The notes under the pieces were generated by a model. The model was not told where the DNA came from. It did no database searches and saw nothing but the letters and a program-made list of their open reading frames with translations. DNA of 16,145 nucleotides from Paracoccaceae bacterium (GTDB taxonomy: Bacteria; Pseudomonadota; Alphaproteobacteria; Rhodobacterales; Rhodobacteraceae): positions 1-16,145 of the forward strand of contig SKWP01000164.1 in NCBI GenBank assembly GCA_007128865.1. Direction: 5' to 3'. Shown piece by piece: positions 314-16,130 of the stretch. A program made the translations under genes and the position numbers. Each line of letters begins with the position of its first letter. Positions within the stretch are counted from its first letter, which is position 1.

Positions 314-387
314 TGGAGGCGAGTACCGGAATCGAACCGGTGTACACGGATTTGCAATCCGCTGCGTAACCACTCCGCCAACTCGCC
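314..387 (-). tRNA. tRNA-Cys (anticodon GCA)
   Basis: Read on the - strand this is a complete 74-nt tRNA with an encoded CCA end at 316-314. The acceptor stem GGCGAGT (387-381) pairs perfectly with ACTCGCC (324-318). The TTGCAAA loop places the anticodon GCA at 355-353 and is closed by a GGAT/ATCC stem. The T arm GGTTCGATTCC is canonical. The discriminator base at 317 is U in the RNA, the known identity base (U73) for cysteine tRNA. The gene sits between the dehydratase end and the flagellar cluster and is transcribed towards the dehydratase gene. Confidence 0.95.
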
Positions 388-1089: not shown

Positions 1090-2331
1090 GTAGTCAAACA
1101 GCGACCGTTCGGCGATCCTGACAAAGCTCTGCTGCGCGGCCTTCTGGTTCAGCAGCAGGCCCTGCAGGCGCGTGATCGCTTCGGCAACGTCCACATCCTG
1201 AAGGCGCGAGACAGCCTGATCCAGCGTCAGGCGCTTGTTTGCGACCTGCTCCAGCCGGGATTCAAGCGCGGCGGCAAGGCTGCCGCCGGCGGCGCGCATC
1301 TCGGCCATGTGCTCGACTGCCGCGGTTGTGCGGGAAACCAGCGTCTGGCTGCCCAGGTGGAGCGGTCGCAGGGCGGTAGGTTCGCGGGTCGGCCGACCGG
1401 CATCATCGGCCGCCGCAAGCCGCACGACAGGGCGTTCTGCCGCTGCGTCGGCCGGGCCGGTCTGAGCCGAAAGGCTGATCCTGCCCGCTGCCTCCAGCAC
1501 GATGCCGGCCCCGTCCTGCGCCGCCGCGGCATGAATGCCGGTCCGGTCGGTCAGGGCATTGATGGCCTCGATCTGCGCGTCGCGATCCGCAGCCCCAAGG
1601 GGCAGCAAAAGCTCGGCAGCACCCTGCGGGCCACCCAGCACAAGCGCGATTTCGCCACCGGCAGGCACCGGTGAAAGATCAAGCCTTGCCCGTCCATCGG
1701 CCTGAACCGTGTCGCGGGCCGACAGCACAGGCTCGGACAGCGCCAGAACGATATCGTCGAGCAGCGCAAACAATCCGTCCCGCCCGTCGCCGAACACCCG
1801 TTCGCCGGCAAGCCCGGTTTCCATCCGGGCGTGAGGCCCCATCTGCACCGCACTGGCCGCGTTGTCGCCCTGGTAGGCAACGCCCTGTGCAGTCGGCACG
1901 AATGCCGGCCCCGGCGCCGTACCCGAAAACAGCGGGCGGCCCTGCTGGTCGGTTGCATTCGCCGCCGCCAGCAACGTGCTGCGCAGGGTTTCGGCCTGCA
2001 CGCGCAGGGCAGCATGCGCTTCGCGGGTCAGCGTGTCGTTGCCGGCCTGAAGGCTGATGCGGTAGAGCTCGCGCACCCCGTCCGAAACCTCGGCAAGCGC
2101 TGAATCGGTCAACGCCAGACGGTCGGCGGCCGCGCGGCCGATGGCGGTTTGCGTCGCCAGATCCGAACGCAGGTCGCGCAGCGCCGACAGCTCCATGGCG
2201 CGGGCCGGATCGGCCGACACGCGCGGGTCGTTGACCCCCGAGGAAAGCTGCTCCTGCAACCGCGCGATGTCGCGATCCTGACGGGCGAAACCGCGGATTG
2301 CCTGTTGGGCAAAGAGAGCATCCGAAATCAT
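1081..2331 (-). CDS. flgL: Flagellar hook-associated protein 3 FlgL
   Basis: This 416-residue protein is a junction subunit between FlgK and the filament, exported through the flagellar type III apparatus. The N-terminus (ALFAQQAIRGFARQDRDIARLQEQLSSG, with the SSG and DPARAMELSALR pattern of flagellin-like D0/D1 helices) and the C-terminus (LQDVDVAEAITRLQGLLLNQKAAQQSFVRI, then SLFDYL) are the paired coiled-coil termini of FlgL. It is longer than enterobacterial FlgL (about 317), with the extra length in an Ala/Gly-rich middle. It begins 11 nt after the flgK stop with GGAG in the gap, and is the last gene of the - strand block. Its TGA (1083-1081) overlaps the convergent fliS end, and no terminator hairpin was seen between them. 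Confidence 0.9.
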   Translation of the reverse strand: MISDALFAQQAIRGFARQDRDIARLQEQLSSGVNDPRVSADPARAMELSALRDLRSDLATQTAIGRAAADRLALTDSALAEVSDGVRELYRISLQAGNDTLTREAHAALRVQAETLRSTLLAAANATDQQGRPLFSGTAPGPAFVPTAQGVAYQGDNAASAVQMGPHARMETGLAGERVFGDGRDGLFALLDDIVLALSEPVLSARDTVQADGRARLDLSPVPAGGEIALVLGGPQGAAELLLPLGAADRDAQIEAINALTDRTGIHAAAAQDGAGIVLEAAGRISLSAQTGPADAAAERPVVRLAAADDAGRPTREPTALRPLHLGSQTLVSRTTAAVEHMAEMRAAGGSLAAALESRLEQVANKRLTLDQAVSRLQDVDVAEAITRLQGLLLNQKAAQQSFVRIAERSLFDYLR

Positions 2332-2342
2332 GATCGGCTCCG

Positions 2343-4211
2343 TTACATCATCCGCAGGAGGGTTTCGAAGAGGCTGCGCGCGATGGAAAGCGCCTGCGCC
2401 GAAGCCTGATAGGATTGCTGAAGCTCCACCATGCGGGCTGCCTCGACATCCAGATTGACAGCGCCCAGGGCGGCCTCCTCGCGTTCGGCGCTTTCCAGAC
2501 GGGCCTGCGCCGTTTCCTGTGCACGCGCGGCCGCGGCCGCTCGGGTTCCCAGATCGCCCTGAAAGCGCGCAAGCTGGTCATGCAGGCCGCTGCCGGTGCC
2601 TTCGCCCCGGCGCATTGCCGCCATCGACTGTGCCAGATCGCCGTTGCCCGAGCCCGGTGCGGTCGGGCGCAGGGCAAAGCGATCTCCGCTCAGGGCTGCG
2701 CCTGTCAGATGCAGATCAAGCCCGGCAAGGCCAACGCGCCCCTGCGCGTCGAGCACCCCGGCTTCCACAAGCGCGCCATCCGGAACACTGCGCAATTCGA
2801 CCTGCCCGGTTTGAGCATCCGTCACCAGCAGGTCGAGCGCCTCTGGCCGCGGTGTTTCGGCAGGCCGGCTGACCTGCAACCGGGCCGCACCGGCATTGCC
2901 CGTCGCAGGGGCGGCGACCATGTCGGCCGAAGCCGCCAGCGCGCGCGGATCGGACAGCGCCAGGCGCAGATCCTGTGCGCGGCCGGTCACGGGCGTCAGG
3001 GTGATGCGGTCACCATCGCGCGCCGCACCGGCCAGATCGATGGCAACGCCGGGCAGGTTCAGCCGCTCGCGCCCGGATGCCAGTAGGGTGCCGCCTTCGT
3101 CCCGCGCCTGCCATTCCGCCGCAGCGGCATGAAAGACCAGTTCAACCGGGCCCGGCGGGGCACCGATGCCGTCATGGTGGACCTGCACCTGAACCCGCCC
3201 GGCATTCGCAGCCGCCGGCGTGACGGCCCAGCCCTGAAGGCTGAACAGATCCTGCCCGCCCCGGCCGGCCAGATCGACACCGCTGCGGTGCAGCTGGTTC
3301 ATCCCTTCGACCATGTTGCGGGCAAGCTGGTCGAACTCCTGCCGCGCCATGTCGATGGCCCCCAGCCCCATCGCCAGCCCGCCAATTCGCCCCGCACCGA
3401 TCATGCGGGTTTCGCGCGCCGACCCGTCGGGCGCGGTGATGTGCAGCGTCAACTGGTCGCGGCCCGACACCGACAACCGCGCCGCGCCGGAACTGTCCAG
3501 CAGCAGCGGCCCGGCTTCGGACCCGAGGCGGATTTCGGGGCGCCCGTCTGCAGTAAGCGAAACCGCAACCGGAAGCTGGCGCGACAGCTCTGTCAGCAGG
3601 GCGTCGCGCCGGTCGGCCAGCGGGTGATGGCCGGCGCCGGCGCCCGACCGGGCGATCTGGGCGTTGAGCCCGTGCAGATCCTCCAGCAGTCCCTGGGCGG
3701 CCGCGGCTGACTGCCCGGCCTGCGCCAGCGTATCGGCGCGCAATTGGTGCAGCCCAGCGGCGGTTTCGGCCATATGCGCGGCAAGGGCCTCGGCGCTGCG
3801 CAGGGTCTGGGCGCGGGTCGTCATGTCGGCGGGGCTTGCCGCCAGCCGCGACAGGCTGTCGAAAAAGGCGCGCATGCTGCCGTCCAGCCCGTTGTCACCC
3901 GGGATGAGCCGTGCCTCAACCGCTTCCGCGACACCCTGATGCGCCGCGGCTGAGGCATGCGCACTTGCCGCCATCCGCCCGCGTTCGGCCACCAGATGAT
4001 CGAATGCACGGCGCACTTCGGTCACGCTGACACCCTGCCCGCCGGTCGGAAGGGTCTGCGGGGTGGTCTGCCCGCCCGCCGCCGCAAGGCTGGCAACATC
4101 GCGCCTGCGATAGCCCTCGGTGCCGACATTGGCGACATTTTCGGCCGTGACCGCAAGGGCCGCGCGGCTTGCCAGAACGCCGCTGCGTGCGATGTGCAGC
4201 ATGTCGGTCAT
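2343..4211 (-). CDS. flgK: Flagellar hook-associated protein 1 FlgK
   Basis: This 622-residue protein forms the first hook-filament junction zone. The N-terminus carries the rod/hook family motif: LHIARSGVLASRAALAVTAENVAN leads into NVGTEGYRRRDV near residues 26-39. A long helical section with LHGLNAQIARSGAG and HHPLADRRDALLTELS near residues 170-210 is typical of FlgK. The C-terminus EAARMVELQQSYQASAQALSIARSLFETLLRMM matches the conserved terminal helix. It is longer than enterobacterial FlgK (about 547), with an enlarged variable centre. The ATG at 4211 overlaps the flgJ TGA by 4 nt (ATGA), implying translational coupling. It is co-transcribed with flgJ and flgL. Confidence 0.93.
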   Translation of the reverse strand: MTDMLHIARSGVLASRAALAVTAENVANVGTEGYRRRDVASLAAAGGQTTPQTLPTGGQGVSVTEVRRAFDHLVAERGRMAASAHASAAAHQGVAEAVEARLIPGDNGLDGSMRAFFDSLSRLAASPADMTTRAQTLRSAEALAAHMAETAAGLHQLRADTLAQAGQSAAAAQGLLEDLHGLNAQIARSGAGAGHHPLADRRDALLTELSRQLPVAVSLTADGRPEIRLGSEAGPLLLDSSGAARLSVSGRDQLTLHITAPDGSARETRMIGAGRIGGLAMGLGAIDMARQEFDQLARNMVEGMNQLHRSGVDLAGRGGQDLFSLQGWAVTPAAANAGRVQVQVHHDGIGAPPGPVELVFHAAAAEWQARDEGGTLLASGRERLNLPGVAIDLAGAARDGDRITLTPVTGRAQDLRLALSDPRALAASADMVAAPATGNAGAARLQVSRPAETPRPEALDLLVTDAQTGQVELRSVPDGALVEAGVLDAQGRVGLAGLDLHLTGAALSGDRFALRPTAPGSGNGDLAQSMAAMRRGEGTGSGLHDQLARFQGDLGTRAAAAARAQETAQARLESAEREEAALGAVNLDVEAARMVELQQSYQASAQALSIARSLFETLLRMM

Positions 4212-4501
4212 GGCCGTTCAACCCTGGGGCCGAACTGTTGCATGATGGCCTCGGCCACGCCCAGCCCCGCCTGTCCCGATGCGTGCCGCGCCAGATGCAT
4301 GTCGAGCATGTCCCGGGCCATGCTCACACCCTGCGAGCCGGTCAGATCGTCGCCCGGAAGGCTGGCACGGCCACCTTTCAGCAGCTCCGCCAGAAAGAGC
4401 GATTCGAAGCCTTCGGCAGCGGCCCGCAGATCGGCGGGCGGGGTGGGCAGGATCGGCTGCGACGGGGGCATCCGAAGCGCCGGGATCGGGGGAAGGTCCA
4501 T
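4208..4501 (-). CDS. flgJ: Rod-binding protein FlgJ, single-domain form lacking the muramidase domain
   Basis: This is a 97-residue protein. Residues 27-92 (EGFESLFLAELLKGGR ... GVSMARDMLDMHLARHAS ... LGVAEAIMQQF) match the rod-binding domain found at the N-terminus of enterobacterial FlgJ. The whole C-terminal peptidoglycan hydrolase domain (about 150-200 residues in enterobacteria) is absent. This matches Rhodobacter sphaeroides, where FlgJ also lacks it and a separate lytic enzyme (SltF) opens the cell wall. The start at 4501 was chosen because GAGGAGG lies just upstream, 13 nt after the flgI stop. The longer frame back to 4648 would overlap flgI heavily and is rejected. It sits in the canonical place between flgI and flgK, so the short length is not a truncation artefact. 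Confidence 0.85.
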   Translation of the reverse strand: MDLPPIPALRMPPSQPILPTPPADLRAAAEGFESLFLAELLKGGRASLPGDDLTGSQGVSMARDMLDMHLARHASGQAGLGVAEAIMQQFGPRVERP

Positions 4502-4514
4502 CCTGCGCCTCCTC

Positions 4515-5633
4515 TCAGATGACCATGAGTTCCGCGCGCAAGGCACCGGCCTGACGCAGCGCTTCGAGTATGGCCACCAGATCCGACGGGCTGGCGCCCA
4601 CGGCATTGATCGCATCGACCAGCGAGGACAGCGACACACCGGGGTCAAAGACGAAGGCCCGCGCGGGTTGCTGGTTCACATCGATCTGCGAATCCGGCGT
4701 GATCACGGCCTCACCGGGCACGATGACCGTACCATTGCCGCCAGCCACCACCGTCGCGCCCTGATCGACGTTGAAATCCTCGGTCACGCGCACGGTCAGC
4801 GACCCATGCGTAACCGCCGCCGGCGTGACCCGCACATTGCCGCCGATCACCACGGTTCCGGTGCGCGAATTCACGACAACCCTTGCAGGCGGGGCATCCG
4901 GCGTGACCTCGATGTTTTCGAGCATGCCCAGAAAGCTGACCCTCGCACCGGGATTGACCGGGGCGCGCACCCGCACCGACGAGCCGTCGATGGCCATGGC
5001 AGTGCCGGCGCCGAACAGCTCGTTGATCGCCTTTTCCACCGCTGCCGCGGTCGAGAAATCGGCGCGGTGCAGGTTGAGCAGCACGAATTCGCTGTCCATG
5101 AACGGCGTGTCGACCACCCGTTCGACGGTGGCGCCGCCGGGGATGCGCCCGACGGTGGGAATGTTGACGGTCAGGAACGATCCGTCATTGCCGCCAACCC
5201 CCAGGCCGCCAACCACGAGATTGCCCTGCGCGATGGCATAGATCTCGCCGTCCGCACCCAGAAGCGGGGTCATCAGCAGCGTGCCGCCCTGCAGCGACCG
5301 TGCGCTGCCCACGGTCGAAACCGTCACGTCCAGCGCCTGCCCTTCCTTCATGAACGGGCCAAGATCGGCGGTGACCATGACGGCTGCGGCGTTGCGGGCG
5401 TTCAGATCGCGGGCACTGACCTGCAGGCCAAGCCGCGAAATCAGCGATTCCAGCGATTGCAGCGTCAGCCCGCTGTTGCCATCGCCACTGCCCGCCAGGC
5501 CGACGACGACCCCATAACCCACAAGCTGGTTGATCCGCACGCCATAGACCGAGGTCAGATCCTTCAGCCTGTCGGCATGGGCCGTCCAGGGCAGGCAGCA
5601 CAGCACCAGCGCCATTGCAAACCGGGCGATCAT
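4515..5633 (-). CDS. flgI: Flagellar P-ring protein FlgI
   Basis: This 372-residue protein forms the P ring in the peptidoglycan layer, the bushing around the rod. Residues 1-20 are a Sec signal peptide (hydrophobic core, then TAHA with likely cleavage before DRLKDL). The family hallmark follows: [28 protein letters not shown] near residues 25-52. [17 protein letters not shown] and later [23 protein letters not shown] are also typical, as is the C-terminal [36 protein letters not shown]. Length agrees with FlgI from other bacteria (about 365-370). The start overlaps the flgH stop by 4 nt, so the two ring proteins are probably translationally coupled. Confidence 0.95.
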
Positions 5634-6277
5634 AGCGGGTTCACCACGGTCAGCGCGCGCGAAAGCCAGCCCTGCCGCCCGGTGTCGGCCACATCACCCG
5701 CGCCGACATAGCGGATATCGGCATGGGCCAGCCTGTCGGATGTCACCACATTGTCGGGGCCGATGTCTTCGGGCCGGACGATGCCGGTCAGCCGCACATA
5801 TTCGGCACCGTTGTTCAGCGCCAGGCGCTTTTGCCCGATGACCTCGAGGTGTCCGTTGGGCAGCACGCGGCTGACGGTTACGCTCAGCCGCCCGGTCAGG
5901 GAGTTCGACTGCGTCGCAGCCCCCCTTCCCGAAAAGCTCTGCCGCGTCGAATGGCCAAGACCGGACGAATCGAACCCGCCGGTCAGGACCGAGGGCAGTT
6001 CGATCTCGAAGGCCGAATTGCGCCCCGAACTGGCAGACTGCGACTTGCTGGCCTGAAAGCGCTCGACGAACTGAACGGTCAGCACATCGCCGACCCCGCT
6101 GGCGCGGCGGTCGTTCACGAACAGCCCGCGCGCCTCCTGGTGAAAGATGCCACCGGTGGCGCGCGCGGCGGCCGATATCGGCTCGTGATGGATCGGGGCA
6201 TAGTCCAGCCCGGCCCGGTCCTCGATATAGGTCGAGCAGGCAGCAAGGGGCAGCAGCAGGATCAGGCGATAACGCAT
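5630..6277 (-). CDS. flgH: Flagellar L-ring lipoprotein FlgH
   Basis: This 215-residue outer-membrane lipoprotein builds the L ring. The N-terminus is a short lipoprotein signal ending in the lipobox LAAC with the acylated cysteine at position 14. Family motifs include [31 protein letters not shown] near residues 42-72 and the closing [29 protein letters not shown]. The segment [12 protein letters not shown] followed by [24 protein letters not shown] corresponds to the serine/glycine-rich central part of FlgH. It begins 6 nt after flgG. The Shine-Dalgarno match is weak, so translation may depend on coupling to flgG. FlgA, the P-ring chaperone, is not in the window. Confidence 0.94.
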
Positions 6278-6283
6278 GTCAGG

Positions 6284-7072
6284 TCACAATCTGTTGGACA
6301 GGAAACGCAGCATCTCGTCAGAGGCCGAGATGGACCGCGAATTGATTTCATAGGCGCGCTGGGTCTCGATCATGTCGACGAGTTCCTGCACGACATTGAC
6401 GTTGGAAGCTTCCAGCGCGCCCTGCACAAGCTTGCCCATGCCGTCGCCCATCGGCGCGCCAAGCACCGGTTCGCCCGAGGCCGGGGTCTGCACCAGAAGG
6501 TTTTCCCCGATCGGGGACAAACCGCGCGGGTTTGCAAAGCTGGCCAGTGCAATCTGACCCACTTCCTGCGCTTCGACCTCGCCGGGCAGGGTAACCGTCA
6601 CGATGCCGTCGCCGGAAATGCTGATCGAAAGTGCATCGGGCGGAATGTTGATTTCGGGTTGCAGCAGATAGCCGCTGTCGGTGGTCAGCATCCCATCGGC
6701 GTTGCGCGAAAACCCGCCATCGCGGGAATACCCCATCCGCCCGTCCGGCAGCAGGATCTGAAAGAACCCCTGCCCGTCGATCGCCAGATCCAGCGCGTTG
6801 CCGGTAGTGGTCAGCGCGCCCTGGGTGTGGACCTTTTCGGTTGCCACCACGCGAACCCCGGTGCCGACGGCCAGCGGGCCGGTCAGGGCGGTCTGGTCGG
6901 ATGTCTGGGCGCCGGCGGGGCGATGTGTCTGGTACAGCAGGGTTTCGAAACTCGCACGGTCGCGCTTGAAACCGGTGGTGTTCACATTGGCCAGATTGTT
7001 GGCGATGACCTGCATGCGGGTCTGCTGGGCATCGAGCCCCGTGCGGGCCACATGCATGGCGTTGGTTGACAT
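6284..7072 (-). CDS. flgG: Flagellar distal rod protein FlgG
   Basis: This 262-residue protein has the usual length for FlgG (about 260). The N-terminus MSTNAMHVARTGLDAQQTRMQ is followed by IANNLANVNTTGFKRDRASF, the rod/hook family signature at residues 23-42. The C-terminal helix SNVNVVQELVDMIETQRAYEINSRSISASDEML is diagnostic. The central IDGQGFFQILLPDGRMGYSRDG block is also typical. FlgG polymerises into the distal rod that runs through the L and P rings. It follows flgF after 54 nt, the widest gap in the operon apart from flgE-flgF. That gap carries a near-consensus sigma-54 promoter and a GAAAGGA ribosome site (7086-7080). Confidence 0.96.
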   Translation of the reverse strand: MSTNAMHVARTGLDAQQTRMQVIANNLANVNTTGFKRDRASFETLLYQTHRPAGAQTSDQTALTGPLAVGTGVRVVATEKVHTQGALTTTGNALDLAIDGQGFFQILLPDGRMGYSRDGGFSRNADGMLTTDSGYLLQPEINIPPDALSISISGDGIVTVTLPGEVEAQEVGQIALASFANPRGLSPIGENLLVQTPASGEPVLGAPMGDGMGKLVQGALEASNVNVVQELVDMIETQRAYEINSRSISASDEMLRFLSNRL

Positions 7073-7108
7073 GGGTCGGTCCTTTCAGGGGTCGCTTTTC
7101 CCTTCCCC

Positions 7109-7124
7109 TGCAAGACCCGTGCCG
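7109..7124 (-). promoter_or_regulatory. sigma-54 promoter for flgG (internal operon promoter)
   Basis: Read on the - strand, 7124-7109 is CGGCACGGGTCTTGCA. It matches the sigma-54 consensus TGGCACG-N4-TTGCA at every defined base except the first. The GG and GC elements are separated by exactly 10 bp. It lies directly after the flgF stop (7127-7129) and wholly within the flgF-flgG gap. Predicted initiation near 7098 gives a leader of about 25 nt that still includes the flgG ribosome site. An enhancer-binding activator is required for this promoter class, but no binding site for one can be recognised here. Confidence 0.72.
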
Positions 7125-7126
7125 GA

Positions 7127-7894
7127 TCAGCCGCCCGGGGGGCGCAACAGGGTGGCGCCGGCCTCGTCGACGTCGCGCGCGGTCTGGACCATGCGCAGAT
7201 TGATCTCGAAACGGCGCTGCAGTTCGATCGATGCAATCAGCTCGGCCGTGGCGTTGACATTGCTGCCTTCGCGCATGCCCTGCACAACCCGCGCCTGCTG
7301 GTCAGGCGCCGGCAGGGCTTCGCCGTCCAGACGGCGGATATGGCCGTCAGGGGACTTGCGCAACGCCAGATCGTCGGGCGGGTTGACCGTGCCCAGCATG
7401 GCTATCAGATCGCGTTGCCCCGGTGCGCCGTCGATGGGGGTGACAAAGACCTGCCCCAGATCATCGACGACGATCTCCCGGAACGGCGGCAGGATGATCG
7501 GTTGCAGTTCATTGTCCAGCAGCAGGTCGCCGGCACCGTTGCGCAGGCTGCCATCGCGGCCCACCTGCAGATCGCCGCGGCGCGACAGCGCAGCCTCGCC
7601 GCCATTTGCCGGCTCGATCACGAAAAACCCGCTGTCGGCAATCGCAAGGTCCATGGGATCGCCTGTCTTTTCCAGCGGTCCGGGCGCACGCGAGAAACCA
7701 TGCACGCCATGTTCCATCCGGAAGGCGCGCGAGGTCTGCGCGCCCATCGCCTCCAGAAACCTGGCCGCGCCGTCATTGGGCAGGTCGCGCCGGAACCCCG
7801 GCACCGACATGTTCGCAAGGTTCTGCGCGGAAACCACCCGGTCATCGCGCAGATTGGCCAGCGAATTGAGCGCGGTATAGACCAGACGATCCAT
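7127..7894 (-). CDS. flgF: Flagellar proximal rod protein FlgF
   Basis: This 255-residue rod protein has the N-terminus MDRLVYTALNSLANLRDDRVVSAQNLANMSVPGFRRDL, carrying the NLAN...PGF signature at residues 25-34. It closes with EGSNVNATAELIASIELQRRFEINLRMVQTARDVDEAGATLL, the FlgF/FlgG terminal helix. The central IADSGFFVI and GDLQVGRDG segments are also family-typical. It forms part of the proximal rod with FlgB and FlgC. GGGGA at 7905-7901 lies 7 nt before the ATG and is a good ribosome site. The gene is separated from flgE by an unusual 329-nt gap that looks like an inserted repeat element. Transcripts from flgB must cross this element to reach flgF. Confidence 0.93.
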   Translation of the reverse strand: MDRLVYTALNSLANLRDDRVVSAQNLANMSVPGFRRDLPNDGAARFLEAMGAQTSRAFRMEHGVHGFSRAPGPLEKTGDPMDLAIADSGFFVIEPANGGEAALSRRGDLQVGRDGSLRNGAGDLLLDNELQPIILPPFREIVVDDLGQVFVTPIDGAPGQRDLIAMLGTVNPPDDLALRKSPDGHIRRLDGEALPAPDQQARVVQGMREGSNVNATAELIASIELQRRFEINLRMVQTARDVDEAGATLLRPPGG

Positions 7895-7905
7895 TCATAG
7901 TCCCC

Positions 7906-7914
7906 CTAGTGTTC
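7906..7914 (+). repeat. left inverted end CTAGTGTTC of the putative inserted element
   Basis: CTAGTGTTC is the exact reverse complement of GAACACTAG at 8219-8227. The first four bases would be the duplicated target CTAG and the rest the element tip. It lies just upstream of the flgF ribosome site. Confidence 0.5.
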
Positions 7915-8218
7915 ACTAACTGACGAAAGATGCCCACTGAGCGCTTGGAGCCCATGGCGGACGGTGGCCCCCTGGCCCGGAATCAAGGCGCGCAGCGCCG
8001 CCGGGCCGCGCCCGACCGCCCCCATCGGGCGGGCGCCCTGCAACGGTGCAAGCTGTGGCGCCGTCGGATGTTCTTGCACCATAAACCGCCCGGGTATCCG
8101 CCATTGCAGCGCCCACCCGGCGGTCGGACGCCGCCCTGGGTTGCGTCTCCGGTCAAGGGCCGCTCTGCCCCGCATATCTACCCCTCGCCTCGCATGGCGG
8201 AACCTGGTGTCGGGTTGG

Positions 8219-8227
8219 GAACACTAG
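8219..8227 (-). repeat. right inverted end of the putative inserted element, overlapping the flgE stop codon
   Basis: GAACACTAG is the inverted partner of 7906-7914. The flgE stop codon TAG (8226-8224) lies inside this CTAG, so insertion here would leave the FlgE reading frame intact. Confidence 0.5.
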
Positions 8228-9492
8228 CTGCGCAGGTTCATGATTGTCTGCATCATCTGCGACGATGTCTCCATCGCCTTGGCATTGGCCTGATAGTTGC
8301 GCTGCGCCGTGATCAGGGTGACCAGTTCCTCGGTCAGATCGACATTGGCCATTTCCAGCGCACCCGAACGCAGCCTGCCAAAGCCGGTGCCGCCCGGCGA
8401 CCCGGCCAGCGGTTCGCCGGCATCCGTGGTGGCTCCGAACGATGCCGCGCCCATCGGGCGCAACGCCCCGGGGTTGGGGAAGTTGACCAGCAGAAGCTTG
8501 CCGCGGGCCACCCGGGCATCGGCGCCATAGGATGCCCAGACGGTGCCTTCGGAATCGATGTCGAGCGTTGTCAGCTGGCTGACGGTCTGGCCGTTCTGGC
8601 GCGCGGCGGCCACCGCAAAGGCGCTGCCGTGCAGTTGCGAGGCAGCAAGGTCCAGCGTCAGGGCGCTGTCAGGCCCTGCGAACCCGAGCCGTGCAGGAGA
8701 TTGCAATTGCCCGTCCGGGCCGAACACGAGCCGGTTGGTGGTGCTTGCATTCATCGCTACGCCGTCGCGCATCAGATGGATGGCATATTCGGTCTGAGGG
8801 TTTTCGGGCGTCGGGTCTGCCAGACGCACCAGATAGACTTCGGCCTCGATCGCGCGGCCGTTGCCATCGAAAACCGGCATCTGTGTCCGGTGGGCCCAGG
8901 TTCCGGGGTCCGCGGCATCGAATTCCCCCGCGGGTGGAACGGCGGCCTGTGCGCCGGCCATTGCCGGGTCGGCGGGAAGGCGCAGTTCCAGCGCGACGGT
9001 CGAGGTCGCCACCGGTTCGCCCATGGCAAGCGGAATATGCAGCGGAACCGCCGCGGGCAGCGCCTCGGAAAGCACCTGCCCGTTCATCGCCACCGGCCAG
9101 CCCAGTAGCTGCTGGCCGGCGCTGTTGACGATGTGCCCGTCAGCCGACATCCCGAAGGCGCCGGCGCGGGAATAGACGGTCTCGTTCTGGGTGCCGGGCG
9201 CACTGCTTTCGGTGCGCAGGGCAAAGAAACCGGGCCCCTCGATCGCCAGATCCAGCCGGTTGCCGGTTCCGACAACGCTGCCCTGCGAAAAATCCTGCGC
9301 CACGCGTGTGATCTGGGTGCCCGAGCCGGCCGTCGTCCGGGCCACGGAAAACGGCGATTGCGTAAAGATGTCGGCAAACTCGGCGCGCGAACCACGAAAG
9401 CCGGTGGTGGATACATTGGCGATGTTGTGCGAGGTGACGGCGATATCCTTCTGCGCCGCGGAAAGCCCGGAAAGGGCCGTGTTCATGGACAT
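8224..9492 (-). CDS. flgE: Flagellar hook protein FlgE
   Basis: This 422-residue hook subunit (enterobacterial FlgE is about 400) has the N-terminus MSMNTALSGLSAAQKDIAVT, then SHNIANVSTTGFRGSRAEFADIF, the hook signature at residues 21-43. The C-terminus NVDLTEELVTLITAQRNYQANAKAMETSSQMMQTIMNL is the conserved terminal helix. LAIEGPGFFALR corresponds to the DLAIxGxGFF box. It polymerises into the hook, the universal joint outside the cell. ATG at 9492 was preferred over the second ATG at 9486 because GGAG (9503-9500) sits at better spacing. It lies 20 nt after flgD. The stop codon TAG coincides with the right boundary of the putative inserted element. Confidence 0.96.
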   Translation of the reverse strand: MSMNTALSGLSAAQKDIAVTSHNIANVSTTGFRGSRAEFADIFTQSPFSVARTTAGSGTQITRVAQDFSQGSVVGTGNRLDLAIEGPGFFALRTESSAPGTQNETVYSRAGAFGMSADGHIVNSAGQQLLGWPVAMNGQVLSEALPAAVPLHIPLAMGEPVATSTVALELRLPADPAMAGAQAAVPPAGEFDAADPGTWAHRTQMPVFDGNGRAIEAEVYLVRLADPTPENPQTEYAIHLMRDGVAMNASTTNRLVFGPDGQLQSPARLGFAGPDSALTLDLAASQLHGSAFAVAAARQNGQTVSQLTTLDIDSEGTVWASYGADARVARGKLLLVNFPNPGALRPMGAASFGATTDAGEPLAGSPGGTGFGRLRSGALEMANVDLTEELVTLITAQRNYQANAKAMETSSQMMQTIMNLRS

Positions 9493-9512
9493 GTCTTACT
9501 CCGATCCTGATG

Positions 9513-10193
9513 TCAGCGAATGGTTTCGACCTCGAGGCCGTGCAGGATGCCAAAGCCTTCGACGTCAAGCGTGATATCGTCCTGTCCGCGCCCCAGCGTT
9601 GCCGACAGAACCCGTGCATAGACCTGAGCGGGCAGGTCTTCGGCCCGTCCGTCCGTCGTGGCGAGAACGGAAACGCGCAGCGGCTGGCGTGCGGCAACCA
9701 GATCAGGCGGCGCGGCTTCCCAGCCGAAGCTGACCGCGCCGGCGGGCTGCGGCCCGAGGCTCTGGCGGTGCAGCAGCGCACCGGTACGCGCATCGCTGAA
9801 GCTGACCTGCACATCCTCGGCGGGGAACTCGAGCTGCGTCATGCCGCGATAGGCACCCTGCCCGTCCGGATAGACCGTTGCACCGGGCACCAGCACCGAC
9901 TGTCCGATCAGGGTCGATGCCATCCCGAGCCGCATGTCGCGCATCCCCGCGCCCAGCCCCTGCAGGCCGTCATGCAACCGGTCGATGCCTGCAACGGTGG
10001 AAAACTGCGCCATCTGGCCCAGAAATTCGGTGTTCTGCATCGGGTTGAGCGGATCCTGATTGCGCAGTTGTGCTGTCAGCAGGGTCAGAAAGTCCTGCTG
10101 TCCCAGCCTGTCCCGGGTCTGTGCATTTGCCCCGGCGGCAGCGGGGGCGGCAGGCAATGCTGACAGGTCGTCACCGATCCGGATCATCGTCAT
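9513..10193 (-). CDS. flgD: Flagellar hook cap / hook assembly protein FlgD
   Basis: This is a 226-residue protein. Residues 31-70 (GQQDFLTLLTAQLRNQDPLN followed by PMQNTEFLGQMAQFSTVAGI) are the diagnostic FlgD N-terminal export and capping motif. The rest (QLEFPAEDVQVSFSDARTGALLHRQSLGP and later AQVYARVLSATLGRGQDDITLDVEGFGIL) fits the Ig/Tudor-like C-terminal domain. FlgD caps the growing hook, is needed for FlgE polymerisation and is discarded when the hook is finished. It starts within the flgC stop (ATGA overlap, 4 nt), which suggests translational coupling. Confidence 0.94.
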   Translation of the reverse strand: MTMIRIGDDLSALPAAPAAAGANAQTRDRLGQQDFLTLLTAQLRNQDPLNPMQNTEFLGQMAQFSTVAGIDRLHDGLQGLGAGMRDMRLGMASTLIGQSVLVPGATVYPDGQGAYRGMTQLEFPAEDVQVSFSDARTGALLHRQSLGPQPAGAVSFGWEAAPPDLVAARQPLRVSVLATTDGRAEDLPAQVYARVLSATLGRGQDDITLDVEGFGILHGLEVETIR

Positions 10194-10600
10194 TCACCCA
10201 TCGACAGGGTGCGGGTCATCAGCATCCGCAGGGTGGACATGGCTTCGAGCGTGTTCTGATAGGCCCGGCTTGCCTCCAGCATCTCGACCATCTCTTCCTC
10301 GACATGAACGGCGGCCTCGTACACGAAGCCATCGGCATCGGCATGGGGATGGTCGGGGCGGAACATGCGAGCCGGTTCACGGTCCAGCGCCACGATGCGG
10401 TCGGCGCGCGGTGCGGCAAGTCCGGAACCCGGTCGGGCCTCGTCGACCACGAAAACCGGGCGAAGCGGGCGAAAGGCGGTTTCGGCGCTGCCCGATACCG
10501 TGCCGGCGTTGGCCAGGTTCGATGCCGTGGCATTGAGCCGCTGCATCTGCGCCGAAAGGGCCCGTCCGCCCAGGTCGAACACGTTGCGGATTTCGGTCAT
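10190..10600 (-). CDS. flgC: Flagellar proximal rod protein FlgC
   Basis: This 136-residue protein has the usual size for FlgC. MTEIRNVFDLGGRALSAQMQRLNATASNLAN carries the NLAN motif at residues 28-31. RPDHPHADADGFVYEAAVHVEEEMVEMLEASRAYQNTLEAM is strongly diagnostic of FlgC (PxHPxAdadGyV, then EEMVxMLEAsRaYq). It forms the proximal rod with FlgB and FlgF. It begins one nucleotide after the flgB stop. Its ribosome site (GGGGAG, 10612-10607) lies inside the flgB end, so translation of the two is probably coupled. Confidence 0.95.
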   Translation of the reverse strand: MTEIRNVFDLGGRALSAQMQRLNATASNLANAGTVSGSAETAFRPLRPVFVVDEARPGSGLAAPRADRIVALDREPARMFRPDHPHADADGFVYEAAVHVEEEMVEMLEASRAYQNTLEAMSTLRMLMTRTLSMGE

Positions 10601-10601
10601 C

Positions 10602-10991
10602 TCATTCTCCCCGGATGGCAGACATCAGCCCGCTGATGCGGCGGTTCAGCAGGGTCAGGCTGGCTTGCTGGCGAAGTGCGTTCTCGGCGAACTGCACCTG
10701 TTCGACCGCCATCTCGACGGTATTGCCGTCGAGCGAGGCGGTCGTGGGAACGCGAAAACCCGGTCCGTTCATCTGTGCTGCGGGATGCGCGAAATGCCGT
10801 GCGTCGGTGGCGCGCAGCGGGCCCTGCCCCGCAACCCGTTGTGCAAGCTCGGCGCGAAAGTCGATATCGCGCGCCTTGTAGCCGGGTGTCGAGGCATGGG
10901 CGATGTTCGACGCAAGGATTGCACCGCGTCTTTCGCCGATCTTCAGCGCTTCGGCATGCACGGCAATATGATCGCGCAGCAGGGTGGTCAT
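10602..10991 (-). CDS. flgB: Flagellar proximal rod protein FlgB
   Basis: This is a 129-residue protein. [30 protein letters not shown] near residues 20-50 is the FlgB signature, and the C-terminus [39 protein letters not shown] is the partner helix. FlgB is at the base of the rod next to FliE and the MS ring. It is the first gene of the flgB-L block. The ATG at 10991 has AAGGA at 11003-10999 with 7-nt spacing. A near-consensus sigma-54 promoter at 11046-11031 would start transcription near 11020, giving a leader of about 29 nt. That promoter overlaps another one serving the divergent gene at 11067. Confidence 0.94.
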
Positions 10992-11018: not shown

Positions 11019-11034
11019 TGGCCCGGGAATTGCA
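11019..11034 (+). promoter_or_regulatory. sigma-54 promoter for the divergent unknown gene at 11067
   Basis: 11019-11034 reads TGGCCCGGGAATTGCA. It matches the sigma-54 consensus TGGCACG-N4-TTGCA everywhere except one base (C for A at the fifth position). The -24 GG is at 11020-11021 and the -12 GC at 11032-11033, exactly 10 bp apart. Predicted initiation near 11045 leaves a 22-nt leader that includes the GAAGGAGA ribosome site. Its -12 element is the same TTGCAA palindrome (11030-11035) used in the other direction by the flgB promoter. An inverted repeat GGCCAG-GTT-CTGGCC (11009-11023) overlaps its -24 element and might be an operator. Confidence 0.72.
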
Positions 11035-11046
11035 AGAAGGATGCCA
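11031..11046 (-). promoter_or_regulatory. sigma-54 promoter for the flgB operon
   Basis: On the - strand, 11046-11031 reads TGGCATCCTTCTTGCA. It matches TGGCA in the -24 element and TTGCA in the -12 element, with only the C and G after TGGCA replaced. The GG (11045-11044) and GC (11033-11032) are 10 bp apart. Predicted initiation is near 11020, about 29 nt before flgB, and keeps the flgB ribosome site in the mRNA. The -12 GC is the same pair of base pairs as in the + strand promoter. Each predicted start site falls in the other promoter's -24 element. Confidence 0.75.
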
Positions 11047-11066
11047 AATGCCGAAGGAGACCGCAG

Positions 11067-11561
11067 ATGAACCGCACCACGAGGGGCTGGATCGCGCAGC
11101 TGGCGCAGATGACCAAGGCGCTTTCGGCGGCCGATGCCGTCGCGTTGCAGGGCCGGGCAGGCGAACCGCCGCTTTCGGGCCGCGTCGGCCTCGGCCTGCG
11201 AATCGCCCTGTCGCGCCGCAGGCCCGCAGGCAAGCCACCGGCGCCCGCCACGATCATTGCGCTTGCACCGGCCCCGGCCGAACCGGTGACCGACGCGGCG
11301 GAAACGCCGCCGGCCGAGCCGCCCAAACCGCAGCGCCGGGCAAAGAAGGTCAGCTTTTCAGCCGTGTCGCTGGATGATGCGGCCAGCCTGCTGACCGCCT
11401 TTGGCCAGACCGGCGACGAAGCGCCAGGCCGCCCGGCCCCCGACACGCCCGCAGCCGAAGAGGCAGCGCCAAGGGCCACCACATTTGGAGAGCCCGAGGC
11501 GCCGGATGGGTCGGATTCTTCGCCAAAGTCGGGGGCTACCCCGACCATTGCCAAAAATTAG
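11067..11561 (+). CDS. Uncharacterised Ala/Pro-rich protein, divergent from the flgB operon
   Basis: I do not recognise this 164-residue protein. Residues 1-52 form a basic N-terminal part ([20 protein letters not shown], then [15 protein letters not shown]). Residues 53-94 are Pro/Ala-rich ([16 protein letters not shown] ... [10 protein letters not shown]). Residues 95-113 ([19 protein letters not shown]) look ordered. The tail is Ala/Pro/Glu-rich and probably disordered. There is no signal peptide, membrane segment or enzymatic motif. ATG 11067 was chosen for its excellent ribosome site GAAGGAGA (11053-11060); the frame is open further upstream to 10365, but that part lies opposite flgB and flgC. 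A near-consensus sigma-54 promoter shared head-to-head with flgB suggests a flagellar role. Its place resembles that of flgA/flgM/flgN in other bacteria, but I see no convincing likeness to those proteins. Confidence 0.72.
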
Positions 11562-11625: not shown

Positions 11626-12273
11626 GTGAACGTCCTGTCGTCGATAAAGAGTGACCAGATCCGCGTGTTGCTGGCCGATGATCACCGAATGGTTGTGGAC
11701 ATGTTCCAGCTGTTTCTGACCGACTCGGCCGGAATGTCCGTGCGCGTGGCCGAAAGCTTTGATGATGCTGCCCAGATCCTTCAGGCCGAAGGCAGTTTCG
11801 ACGTTGTCCTGCTGGACCTGAACATGCCCGGCATGAACGGTGTCGCCGGACTCAAACGCGCGATGCGCCTGAATGACGGCAAACCCGTATCGATCCTGAC
11901 CGGAAACACCACACCGCGGATGATGCAGGAGATCATGGCAACAGGCGCGGCCGGTATCGTGCTCAAGACGACGCCGTTGCGCAGCCTCGCCAATGCCATC
12001 CGCTTCATGCATTCGGGCGAACGCTATCTGCCGATGGAACTGATCAAGACGCAGGCGATGCCCGCATCCGGCAGCCGTCAGGGCAATCTGACGGACAAGG
12101 AAATGGATGTCCTGACCCAGTTGGCTGAGGGCAAGTCCAACAAGGAAATCGCCAACGAACTCCAGATGGCCGAAGCCACGGTCAAGATGCATGTCACCGG
12201 CATCTGCCGCAAGATCGGGGCCAACAACCGCACCCGGGCCGTGATCATGGCCAAGGAGATGGGGCTGGTCTGA
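11626..12273 (+). CDS. LuxR/NarL-family two-component response regulator
   Basis: This 215-residue protein has an N-terminal receiver (about 11-130) with all key residues: acidic pair D18/D19 in LLADDH, phosphoacceptor D64 in VVLLDLNMPGMNG, T92 and K114. A C-terminal LuxR-type helix-turn-helix spans about 152-213 (LTDKEMDVLTQLAEGKSNKEIANELQ, then AEATVKMHVTGICRKIGANNRT). Such proteins bind DNA as dimers once phosphorylated. Translation starts at GTG 11626; an in-frame TGA at 11614 rules out longer versions, and the ribosome site (GAGTAGG) is weak. A small GCATG/CATGC hairpin lies at 11592-11605, and no clear promoter was seen in the 64-nt gap, so read-through from the gene at 11067 is possible. 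The partner kinase may be the convergent gene at 12336-16130. Targets are unknown. Confidence 0.92.
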   Translation: MNVLSSIKSDQIRVLLADDHRMVVDMFQLFLTDSAGMSVRVAESFDDAAQILQAEGSFDVVLLDLNMPGMNGVAGLKRAMRLNDGKPVSILTGNTTPRMMQEIMATGAAGIVLKTTPLRSLANAIRFMHSGERYLPMELIKTQAMPASGSRQGNLTDKEMDVLTQLAEGKSNKEIANELQMAEATVKMHVTGICRKIGANNRTRAVIMAKEMGLV

Positions 12274-12335: not shown

Positions 12336-15300
12336 TCATGACTGCGACAGCAGCGCTTCGGCCGCGCCGGCCGCCGCGGCAGACTTGCATGCATGCAGAT
12401 CGGACAGGAAGCCGGGCCGGCCGACCGGACCGCGGCACAGCCACAGCCGGCCTTGGGCCTCGGGCATGTCCTGCCCGGCCGCATCGATCACGCCCACGAC
12501 AGGCACCTCTGCCCGCAGGGTGCCAAGGGCGGCTTGTGCCGCACCGATCCCGGAAACCCCGCCCAGATCGAGAACCACCGCATCCCAGCTCGCTTCCTCT
12601 GCCAGCATTTCGGCAACCTCGGTCAGGGTGCGACAGGGAAGCGTCAGGGCGCCGGCCTGTTCGAGCAGGGTTGCAAGCCCGGCCAGCCCGTCGGGGCTGG
12701 ATGAATACACAAGCACCCCCTCACCTGCCCATGCCTGCGCCGACGCGGTCGTTCCGGCCGGGGAAAGCCCCGTTCCCGGGGGTTCGATCGGCCAGAGGAT
12801 GGTGAAACGCGCCCCCTTGCCCGGCGCCGTGTCAAGGGCCAGCGCGCCGCCGTGTTCCAGCACCGCGCTTGCCACGATGGGCACGCCCAGACCGGTGCCC
12901 TTGTCGCCCTTGGTCGAGAAATAGGCGTCAAAGATGCTCGCACGGATGGCATCATCCATACCCGGTCCGTCGTCTTCGACAATGATGCGGGCATAGGGGG
13001 TATCCGTCACGGTCTCGCCGACGTCGAAGGCACGGTCCAGCTCGGCCGGTTCCGCCAGCCCGAGCGACAGCGCGATAGTCCCCGCAGCCTGCCCGCCCGG
13101 ACGGGCCGTCAGGGCATCGCGCGAATTGATGATCAGGTTCAGCACCATCTGCAAGACCGAAGTGCTGTCGGCAAAGGTCATCACCGGATGGTCAGGCAGG
13201 TCGACCGACAGCGAAACGGGCGCCCGCAGGCCGGGCCGCACCAATGCCTCGGCGTCGCGCAGCGGGCGCCGCAGATCCAGCAGTTCGTGCCGTGTCTCGC
13301 TCTTGCCGAGCGACAGCATGCGGCGCAACAGTCCCGAAGCCTGCTCCGATGCCTCGGATATCCGCCCGGCCAGCGACCGCGCCATGTCCAGATCCCCGGC
13401 TTCCCCGATCATGCTGGCCGCCCCCGAAACCACGGACAGCACATTGTTGAAATCATGGGTCAGGCCGGCTGCGATATGGCCGATTTCCTCGCGCCTGCGC
13501 GCAAGCGTCAGTTCCTCGCGGATGCGTTCGCGCTCGATCTCGTCGCGGCGCTTTTCCGAAATGTCGCGAAAGATGCACAGGATGCTCTGATCGGCATTCC
13601 GCGTCGCCGAAGTCTCGATCTCGACCGGTTCGCCGCCCGACAATCCGAGATAGGACTGCCCCTGCCAGAATCCTCCGGCTTCAAGCGCCGCATTCGCCTG
13701 CGCCGCAGCACCGCTTTCGTCGCCGCCGAAGATCAGGCCAAGCCAATCCAGCCCGATCATTTGCTCGGCAGTATCGCGCCCGAAAATCTCGACGGCGGCC
13801 GTATTGGCATAATTGATGCGCCCGTCCGCGGTGGCAAGAACGATCCCGTCGCGCGAGGCATCCATGGCCCGCGCCCGGTCTGCAAGCGCGCGCCGCTCGG
13901 CATCCTTCCATTCGGTCACATCGGTCAGGATGCAGATGCGCCCGCCATCGGGGGTGGCCTTCTGGGTTTCATGGTACCACCGGCCCGAAATGCTGCGCAG
14001 CCTGTTTTGCGAACTCTTCAGCCTGGCCTTGGCCAGCTGCCGTTCCAGCCACGCGTCCTTGTCGTCATGGGCCTTGCCGAAAACACCCTTCATCACGCCT
14101 TCGGCAAGGATATCGCGCAGCTCGAACCCGGGTTGCAGCATGTCTGCAAGCTCGGGATAAAGCGCACGGTAGCGTTCGTTGCAGATCACCAGCTTCTGGT
14201 CGGCATCGAACAGGATCAGCGCGTCCTGCATGATGTCCACGGCGCTTTTCAGTTGCGCACGGGCGGCCTTTTCGGAAGCCAGCGCAAGTTCGAGCTCCTG
14301 TGCGTGCAGACGGTTGATCGTGATGTCGGGCTGCACCGACATGAAGCCCTGCAGCGCGCCCCGGGCGTCGTGGATCGGCTGGATGGCCATGCTGATCCAG
14401 TATTTTTCGCCCGTTTTCGTGGCGTTGAGCAGTTCGCAGGTGATCGGGCGCTGCTGCCGCAGCGCCGCGCCGATGCGCCTGACCGTGGCCTGATCGGTTT
14501 CGGGGCATTGCAGGAAGGAACCCGGCTTTCTGCCCCTGATCTCGGACAGCTTGTAACCCGTCCGCTCCTCGAAGGCAGGGTTGACCCATTCAACCCCGCC
14601 GTCGGGATCGGTCGTGATGACAAGGTTGGTGGTGTTGCGGGCAATCTTGCTCAGCCGTTCGATTTCCCGACGCTGGGCATGCTGTTCGGAAACATCGCGC
14701 AGGATGGCGATATAGCCCGGCGGAATGTTGCTCCGGTCCTGCGGGCGGCGCGCGGCCGCAACCGAATAATGCCGCGTTGTCCCGTTTGCCGGGAAGGCAA
14801 GGGTATAGCCCTGGGCAACCTCCCGGCTTTCGAGATCGTTCCGGATACCGGCCGCGATCGCGGTAATGTCCGCCGGAAAATCCTCTGCGACACTCCGGCC
14901 GATCAGGGCGTTGAGGTCGAGTTGCCGCTCGATGCTCTGGTTGGCATGGAAGCCGGTGATGCGCAGGTCACTGTCGAGTTCGAGCAGGATGTCGGGAATG
15001 ACGCTGAGCGTCGAATGCAGGCGCCGCCGCTGCAGATCCTGCTCGGCGCGGATGGTGGCCAGCCGCAGCTGGGCATCGCGTTGCACCAGCATGGTTGCCA
15101 TGACATTGGCAACCGACCTGATCAGGTGGATCTCGCCTTTCAGGAAGCTCCGGTAACTGCGAACCGCATCATAGCCGACAAAGCCGAAGATCTGTCCGTC
15201 ATGGCGCAGGGGCACCGCCAGAAGCGAGCGTATCCCCTGCATTTCCAGAACCTTGCGAATGTCGTCTTCCGGATCCAGCGCACCGACATCGGCGATGTAT

Positions 15301-16130
15301 ATATGGGCATCATGGCTGAATGCCTCGTACCAGGGCTCGGCAATCTCGCGGGGTTGTTCCTGCAACAGCCCGATCATCGGCTCGATCCCCGGTGCGCACC
15401 ATTCATGGGTGTTGCTGATCGTGGTTTCCGAGGTATCGCGAAACAGATAGGTGCGGTCGGAACCGCAGAACCTGCCCATGCGGGCCAGCGCCGAGGTTAC
15501 CACCGCGTCGAGTTCGACGTGCCGCGCGCCCATCAGGTCGTTGATGATCTCGACGCTGAGCGCCTGCGCGGCCGTCAGCCTGTCGATTGCGCCGCGCAGC
15601 GCCTCGCGATCCGTGCTTTCCGGCCCGGTGCCGCCGGGCAGATCCGCATCACCGGCCGGCCGGGGCGAAACCGGCATCAGACCATGCTGCTTGCCGGTCA
15701 GCTGTGCATGTGCCAGCCTGACCAGGGCCGCCGATGCCTGCAGATCGGCAACGCCGGCTGCATCCAGGCGCCCCACGCCCTGCATCACCAGCGCCAGCGG
15801 AACGAGACCGCCGGTTTCAGGGCGCTGCAGCACCAGTGCCAGATACCCCGGACACGGATAAACCACCGCGTCCCGCACAGGGTCGCCGCCGGTCCAGATG
15901 CCATCGGAATCGATGCCATCAAGGTCGATCGAGCGTTCCGACGGGCTTTCCTCGAGCACGATCAGTCCGTGGTCGGTGCCGGTTACGATGGCGCAGTGAC
16001 TGGCCGACAGATGCCGGCAGATTTCGCCAAGAAACCGCCTCAGCGCATCGGAGGTGTCATCGGCATTCGCCAACGACTGCATGCTCGATACAAGAAAGCC
16101 TTGCCAGGACCTTTCGACGGGATGCGTCAT
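12336..16130 (-). CDS. Multi-sensor GAF/PAS hybrid-type histidine kinase with a degenerate receiver
   Basis: This is a 1264-residue cytoplasmic kinase with no membrane segment seen. Likely layout: a degenerate GAF-like region (about 15-140); a GAF domain (about 195-350, SLLAVPLRHDGQIFGFVGYD); and four PAS domains (about 366-480, 490-605, 625-742 and 750-862), several ending in RDVSE/TDVTE/RDISE. Next come the phosphoacceptor helix with H892 in LTHDFNNVLS, and an ATPase domain with N box LNLIINSRDAL (N998, N1002), G1 DDGPGMDD (D1054, G1055, G1057), F box IFDAYFSTK and G2 GTGLG (1078-1082). The last part (about 1137-1247) has a receiver-like fold: D1188 in VVLDLGG remains, but the N-terminal acidic pair is replaced (VLVYSSSP) and the Thr and Lys positions are not conserved. 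ATG 16130 has no clear ribosome site in the 15 nt visible, so the start is less certain. The HDFNN type resembles CckA-like and sensory hybrid kinases. Confidence 0.9.
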   Translation of the reverse strand: MTHPVERSWQGFLVSSMQSLANADDTSDALRRFLGEICRHLSASHCAIVTGTDHGLIVLEESPSERSIDLDGIDSDGIWTGGDPVRDAVVYPCPGYLALVLQRPETGGLVPLALVMQGVGRLDAAGVADLQASAALVRLAHAQLTGKQHGLMPVSPRPAGDADLPGGTGPESTDREALRGAIDRLTAAQALSVEIINDLMGARHVELDAVVTSALARMGRFCGSDRTYLFRDTSETTISNTHEWCAPGIEPMIGLLQEQPREIAEPWYEAFSHDAHIYIADVGALDPEDDIRKVLEMQGIRSLLAVPLRHDGQIFGFVGYDAVRSYRSFLKGEIHLIRSVANVMATMLVQRDAQLRLATIRAEQDLQRRRLHSTLSVIPDILLELDSDLRITGFHANQSIERQLDLNALIGRSVAEDFPADITAIAAGIRNDLESREVAQGYTLAFPANGTTRHYSVAAARRPQDRSNIPPGYIAILRDVSEQHAQRREIERLSKIARNTTNLVITTDPDGGVEWVNPAFEERTGYKLSEIRGRKPGSFLQCPETDQATVRRIGAALRQQRPITCELLNATKTGEKYWISMAIQPIHDARGALQGFMSVQPDITINRLHAQELELALASEKAARAQLKSAVDIMQDALILFDADQKLVICNERYRALYPELADMLQPGFELRDILAEGVMKGVFGKAHDDKDAWLERQLAKARLKSSQNRLRSISGRWYHETQKATPDGGRICILTDVTEWKDAERRALADRARAMDASRDGIVLATADGRINYANTAAVEIFGRDTAEQMIGLDWLGLIFGGDESGAAAQANAALEAGGFWQGQSYLGLSGGEPVEIETSATRNADQSILCIFRDISEKRRDEIERERIREELTLARRREEIGHIAAGLTHDFNNVLSVVSGAASMIGEAGDLDMARSLAGRISEASEQASGLLRRMLSLGKSETRHELLDLRRPLRDAEALVRPGLRAPVSLSVDLPDHPVMTFADSTSVLQMVLNLIINSRDALTARPGGQAAGTIALSLGLAEPAELDRAFDVGETVTDTPYARIIVEDDGPGMDDAIRASIFDAYFSTKGDKGTGLGVPIVASAVLEHGGALALDTAPGKGARFTILWPIEPPGTGLSPAGTTASAQAWAGEGVLVYSSSPDGLAGLATLLEQAGALTLPCRTLTEVAEMLAEEASWDAVVLDLGGVSGIGAAQAALGTLRAEVPVVGVIDAAGQDMPEAQGRLWLCRGPVGRPGFLSDLHACKSAAAAGAAEALLSQS

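Follow-up and report, generated by a model that had tools for sequence, protein, structure and literature searches.

In E. coli, the divergent operons flgAMN and flgBCD are driven by FlhDC and sigma-70, and they are not known to share a -12 element. Divergent sigma-54 promoters were reportedly found by Pena-Sanchez in 2009 at flhA/flgA of the Rhodobacter fla1 cluster, and at E. coli crl overlapping sigma-54 and sigma-70 promoters are said to have been described by Zafar in 2014. In E. coli and Salmonella, sigma-70-dependent bidirectional promoters are described as having a near-symmetrical core which is read on both strands, but by one polymerase at once (PMC12825309, PMC10268837). According to the definition used there, the divergent starts lie 7-25 bp apart (PMC10268837); mostly the distance is 18 bp, and the element used is the -10 element. 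For five tested promoters of this type, basal activity was reported to be too low for competition (PMC12825309). The sigma-54 holoenzyme, as described in PMC4591121, binds promoters in an inactive state, so that occupancy and competition need not follow the transcript level.

The DNA analysed here (the window, 16,145 nucleotides from a Paracoccaceae bacterium) carries in front of flgB an element at positions 11019-11046 that is probably a bidirectional sigma-54 promoter, serving flgB-L in one direction and a divergent, flagellum-linked gene in the other, the two being co-activated and sterically partitioned. We infer the RpoN dependence, the start sites, the mutual exclusion and the partition ratio.

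The putative promoter dyad in the window

The features of the locus are as follows.

1081-10600, minus strand: flgC, D, E, F, G, H, I, J, K and L, rest of the presumed operon (one strand, closely spaced)
10602-10991, minus strand: flgB, opening the presumed operon (TIGR01396, 89.7 bits, cut-off 59.05)
11019-11046, both strands: predicted bidirectional sigma-54 promoter, whole dyad TGGC-N7-TTGCAA-N7-GCCA (letters, uniqueness, kept in relatives)
11019-11022, plus strand: -24 element TGGC of the predicted divergent promoter (at exact spacing, GG in 47/57 and TGG in 38/57 loci)
11020, minus strand: predicted +1 of the flgB operon (from spacing only, 12 nt from the -12 C)
11030-11035, both strands: common, palindromic -12 element TTGCAA (shared G-C pairs at 11032-11033)
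11043-11046, minus strand: -24 element TGGC, then AT, of the predicted flgB promoter (TGGCA(C/T) in 57/57 loci, partly by construction)
11045, plus strand: predicted +1 of the divergent gene (from spacing only, 12 nt from the -12 C)
11054-11059, plus strand: AAGGAG, probable ribosome-binding site for the divergent gene
11067-11561, plus strand: divergent gene encoding 164 aa, without a Pfam match (fast-evolving family beside fla1 flgB; presumably RSP_0084 in C. sphaeroides)

The plus-strand promoter TGGCCCGGGAATTGCA (11019-11034) faces the open reading frame at 11067-11561, and the minus-strand promoter TGGCATCCTTCTTGCA (11046-11031) faces flgB-L; on each strand, GG-N10-GC is present with TGGC and TTGC. 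The letters and coordinates of both promoters in the original prediction proved correct on re-reading the sequence, and the opposed near-consensus promoter motifs with their common G-C pairs inside TTGCAA are seen in it directly. The further claim that each predicted start falls on the -24 GG of the other promoter also holds, positions 11020 and 11045, 25 bp apart, being the -25 G's. The -24 consensus of sigma-54 promoters is TGGCAC; TGGCAT on the flgB side fits it, whereas TGGCCC on the divergent side departs at -22. The A at -11 is fixed on both sides by the TTGCAA palindrome.

A scan of the window for TGGCN7TTGCA with up to two mismatches gave 92 matches (mean of 69 in the shuffled window, a figure for this whole class and not for exact matches), and the only exact ones are the two halves of the dyad. 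The complete 28-mer occurs exactly once in 2.84 Mb of this genome (a MAG, 66.9% complete).

The genes flgC-K were assigned by profile matches, several of the best of which (e.g. flgD, flgF, flgH and flgJ) are below the curated cut-offs. The divergent gene is followed by a LuxR-type (GerE-domain) response regulator (11626-12273, plus strand) and then by a PAS/GAF histidine kinase of 1264 aa (12336-16130, minus strand); L082, L098 and L101 also have comparable response regulators, noticed by eye, close to the divergent gene. At the other end of the window, a tRNA-Cys with GCA anticodon was detected by ARAGORN and Rfam (314-387, minus strand).

Conservation, displacement and loss at fla1-type flgB loci

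The FlgB sequence of the window was searched in 394 genomes of the family, 23 of which have a copy of the fla1 type (E <= 1e-18; the name follows R. sphaeroides). Further searches covered 61 relatives and named genome contigs, the latter giving 40 loci. From 71 loci with a FlgB match at E <= 1e-14 (tblastn), 9 duplicates were removed and 5 loci were set aside, namely L118-L120 from Vogesella, L121 from a Neisseriaceae MAG and L035 of the same class, while L034 from outside the family was retained. The resulting 57 loci take in Cereibacter, Paracoccus, Seohaeicola, Yoonia and Roseicyclus. Since the flgB-side score decided where the site was set in a given locus, conservation of the flgB side (57/57) and of the four bases TGCA is partly by construction; the divergent side, these four shared bases excepted, played no part in the placement. 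In the Vogesella loci, TGG stands at the shared spacing, but the -12 element reads AAGC and no homologue of the divergent gene was recognised there.

The divergent -24 GG was found at the exact shared offset in 47 of the 57 loci (39/48 without near-copies). TGG occupies this offset in 38/57 loci and any other offset from -25 to +8 in at most 4/57, with GG alone reaching at most 23/57 elsewhere; together with TTGCA it is present in 36/57. A pyrimidine directly precedes the TGG position in 54/57 loci. The columns 8-11 bases outside the divergent TGG hold almost no information, thus neutral bases have drifted. The divergent -24 element mostly reads TGGnCC, position -22 being non-consensus in 51/57 loci (C in 32/57, the consensus A in only 6/57), and since this differs from TGGCAC the divergent promoter may be weak. 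The alignment of relatives, suggested with the original prediction as a check, supported the opposed pair of promoter sequences sharing one -12 element, which is kept in 43/57 loci. By our criteria the remaining loci comprise 3 with a displaced divergent promoter and 11 in which it is lost, which indicates that sharing of the -12 element is not obligatory.

One reading that has to be weighed is that only the flgB-side promoter works. The opposite-strand TGGnCC would then be part of the flgB start region, kept by a preference of RpoN2 promoters in initiation or in the early transcript, and the divergent gene would use another promoter. Other fla1 sigma-54 sites served as controls. Upstream of fla1 flhA there are sigma-54 promoters on both strands, and 38 sites were obtained from 19 of the 20 flhA/flgA-side loci searched. 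Of these sites, 4/38 have CCA at the corresponding offset, compared with 38/57 at flgB (Fisher p 5e-8), which speaks against this reading; the 4/38 is nevertheless a mild excess over the 0-2 found at other offsets, and a few flhA/flgP promoters show the mirrored CCA without a gene sharing the -12 element, both of which favour it. The 23 fla1 genomes were also searched for TGGCAYN5TTGCA with CCA 3-15 bases behind it. Of the 40 rows obtained, 23 have the exact gap of 9; 18 of these 23 are at flgB and 5 elsewhere. In view of this and of the mild CCA excess, a start-region preference could account for part of the signal. That it suffices to explain the whole was rejected on the basis of the 38 flhA/flgA-side sites, with the weak excess staying. 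Near fla1 flhA/flgP (genes named by eye), the loci L158, L149 and L161 have a mirrored TGGnCC but no shared TTGCAA -12 element.

Further observations argue against a promoter that works towards flgB only. The T at -15 lies outside the flgB consensus and is retained in 43/57 loci. In addition, the divergent unit has moved intact in three loci: L087, L090 and L032 contain TGGTCCG..TTGCA with a -12 element of its own, shifted by 35, 13 and 12 bases, respectively, towards flgB. These displaced units give, in our opinion, the strongest single reason for regarding the right-facing element as a promoter in its own right. Finally, the start codon chosen for the divergent gene follows the predicted +1 by 20-35 nt in 38 of the 43 shared loci. 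Taken with these data, we consider a promoter for flgB only to be unlikely.

The displaced loci also bear on the idea that the dyad is the site of a dimeric regulator, for instance of a repressor covering the flgB start, which resembles sigma-54 elements by chance. The inverted symmetry of TGGC, TTGCAA and GCCA would suit such a site, but the two -24 sides differ in form (TGGCAY as opposed to TGGnCC), the halves separate in L087, L090 and L032, and GG-N10-GC is retained, so that this idea is highly improbable.

With regard to loss of the bidirectional promoter, 4 of the 11 lost loci still have the GG in place while the remainder of the element is missing. Other divergent promoters in the lost loci are weak candidates only, e.g. 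in L069 at -36 and in L064 at +39; in L028 the shared promoter is accompanied by a second good site at -46. Loss of one -24 element beside an intact divergent gene in close relatives had been named as evidence against the original prediction. It was found in distant relatives (11 lost and 3 displaced loci out of 57), whereas the clade of six rows to which the window belongs keeps the pair throughout (6/6). In the FlgB tree, the shared state occurs on both sides of the midpoint root, which was used for drawing only, and the three states need 9 changes (17 of the 54 inner branches are weak). This fits an old arrangement which would have been lost several times. Loss of the GG goes along with loss of T-15 (one-sided Fisher test, 6e-5 for 57 loci and 3e-4 for 48 non-redundant ones); with phylogeny controlled, the link is left with no more than 5 independent pairs and loses significance.

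Two observations concern the distribution of the cluster. The 2.2 Mb genome G281 has two fla1-type flgB loci, on contigs C70 (L078) and C87 (L081), both with the shared-promoter dyad. In G360 and G394-G397, which are of the same genus, only distant FlgB matches were obtained (best E 2.7e-9), four of these five genomes being 71-87% complete. The fla1-type cluster may therefore be patchy or missing within the genus of the window.

Independent of flgB, a pattern scan detected the exact dyad in 27 of the 394 family genomes and the reversed control pattern in one genome among the matches listed. A fla1-type flgB adjoins 5 of the 27 exact dyads, the window included, which means that most of the dyad excess is not due to flgB. 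By simple ORF calls, 21 of the other 22 lie inside ORFs; the test is a weak one, as 4 checked flgB sites are also inside spurious ORFs. A dyad with TGGCAY on both sides is absent from 398 genomes of the phylum, and the window itself does not satisfy this pattern (plus side TGGCCC). With one strict side and TGG on the other, 8/398 genomes have a dyad, again including the window, and by eye no pair of flgB and divergent gene was seen at the remaining 7.

The divergent gene, its expression and the sigma-54 machinery

In the window, the ATG of the divergent gene at 11067 is 22 nt past the predicted +1 at 11045. Among the 43 shared loci, an ATG with at least a 4/6 match to AGGAGG is present in 32; here and in the distances given above, start codons were picked by motif, ATG and ribosome-site score, a choice that favours good ones. 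The start-codon distances support the view that the plus half is placed such that it would drive the divergent gene.

One recognisable ORF family occupies the divergent position in most loci (judged by eye from motif and alignment); the exceptions are L094, where the contig ends too soon, and L099, L104 and L114, where no ORF of the family was picked. In its members, a motif like RRALLAARIALMRK lies within a short N-terminal stretch, after which comes a proline- and acid-rich region. Some of them, e.g. in L012 and L033, carry a C-terminal piece resembling DUF7302, which looks eroded in the window copy. When four homologues were scanned, that of L012 reached 26.5 bits for DUF7302 (cut-off 24.9), two were below the cut-off and the fourth, a piece of 110 residues, had no match. 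The search of the window protein against Pfam gave no match, and a database search gave 3 proteins at E <= 0.01, including one with 98% identity. With the homologue from Cereibacter ovatus as query, 11 proteins including itself were retrieved, and the names shown are hypothetical or uncharacterized. MotF, for which a review gives a mass of 24 kDa and a membrane span at 54-74, was considered as a candidate and rejected, because by eye the window protein was judged unlike this description.

In C. sphaeroides, flgB is RSP_0083. The divergent gene apparently corresponds to RSP_0084, on the basis of the locus numbering and of the Cereibacter-type loci L063, L092 and L105. In a 2025 preprint, the cluster (there called fla3) is given as RSP_0032 to RSP_0083 (PMC11974857). 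This bound stops just before RSP_0084, which would be an overlooked flagellum-linked gene, and our sequence evidence links the promoter of its family to flgB across genera.

Published transcript data from C. sphaeroides are available for both genes: in two comparisons, the log2 fold changes are 4.65 and -2.19 for flgB and 2.86 and -1.81 for RSP_0084 (PMC9779115, Table 1), that is, of one sign and different size, in sRNA strains rather than in an rpoN mutant, and with RSP_0084 assigned by number. This table contains the 50 most increased genes, and many other fla1 genes change too; in the same strain, rpoN2 mRNA is up by 2.8 and fleQ by 1. At the population level and from one experiment, these values support that RSP_0084 belongs to the fla1 regulon.

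The same values bear on the either/or switch which was one of the two functions originally proposed, along with a ratio setter. In a switch, the orientation of the holoenzyme would differ by state, and flgB and the divergent gene would change in opposition. The common -12 element and the steric logic would allow this, and for bidirectional sigma-70 promoters repression of one side is described as a possible result of strongly activating the other (PMC12825309). However, flgB and RSP_0084 rise together in one comparison of PMC9779115 (Table 1) and fall together in the other; the data come from a single paper, are population-level and concern a homologue taken by locus number. An orientation-specific regulator was not encountered either, in searches directed at other questions. 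The parallel changes argue against an on/off switch, which we regard as distinctly unlikely, and for a co-activated, partitioned promoter. The ratio setter stands as plausible in view of the unequal -24 elements.

The genome of the window contains three RpoN genes, one of them on a contig with fliE, fliP, fliR and flhB and with a 225-bit match to the activator domain. For this domain there are 7 matches at 6 places, four of 198-225 bits and the weakest of 24.7. Matches to PF00158 are also found in all 14 control genomes, so that weak ones say little and only the strong ones count. In C. sphaeroides, RpoN2 is reported to serve the fla1 genes together with FleQ and FleT, and position -11 to matter in the choice between RpoN1 and RpoN2 (PMC11999139). 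A repeat and word scan for an activator site, extending about 300 bp from the promoter, yielded nothing separable from coding conservation.

Proposed competition for one -12 element and comparison with known systems

For the bidirectional promoter we propose the following mechanism. The palindromic -12 element TTGCAA flanked by two -24 elements would allow the RpoN holoenzyme to be seated either way round, facing left to serve flgB-L or facing right to serve the divergent gene. Judged by the geometry, a single holoenzyme would fit at once. A common flagellar activator of the FleQ/FleT type would open whichever complex is bound, and as one activator acts on either complex, both genes would rise together. 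The proportions of the two outputs would be set mainly by the -24 elements, with flgB favoured because its -24 element is TGGCAY and that of the divergent gene mostly TGGnCC.

Since the sigma-54 holoenzyme binds in an inactive state, competition at the dyad could precede activation. From this follows a more specific and tentative version, to which we give somewhat less than an even chance: the dyad might be a setter of a fixed ratio, in which stable closed complexes compete for one -12 element before activation and the -24 elements fix how much flgB operon is made relative to divergent protein, a ratio which would stay constant as the activator raises both. A bidirectional promoter of the sigma-54 kind would differ from the sigma-70 ones in that the complexes competing there are stable and silent, a regime of its own that lends itself to clean tests, and the natural shared, displaced and lost versions are ready-made alleles for comparison.

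In our searches of open-licence PMC papers, no sigma-54 promoter pair sharing a -12 element was found, although an earlier mention is possible. Bidirectional promoters as such are already known for sigma-70; what may be new here is the sigma-54 version with a common -12 element. Like its sigma-70 counterparts as they are described, the dyad has a near-symmetrical core common to both strands. The starts predicted for it would lie 25 bp apart. Unlike them, it uses the sigma-54 -12 element in place of the -10 element, and the pair is conserved across genera. Like fla1 flhA/flgA, the locus has divergent, presumably RpoN2-dependent promoters that belong to this flagellar cluster, probably with the same activators; the promoters there each have a -24/-12 pair of their own, the distance in the genome of the window being 48 bp, whereas one common -12 element is found at flgB. 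At E. coli crl, a sigma-54 holoenzyme on one promoter reportedly occludes another, as would happen at the dyad, but on the same strand and with two sigma factors, in contrast to the opposite strands and the one sigma factor of the dyad. Finally, flgAMN/flgBCD of E. coli resembles our locus in that a flgB operon is accompanied by a divergent flagellar gene; the divergent genes differ, however, and no shared -12 element is known from the E. coli pair.
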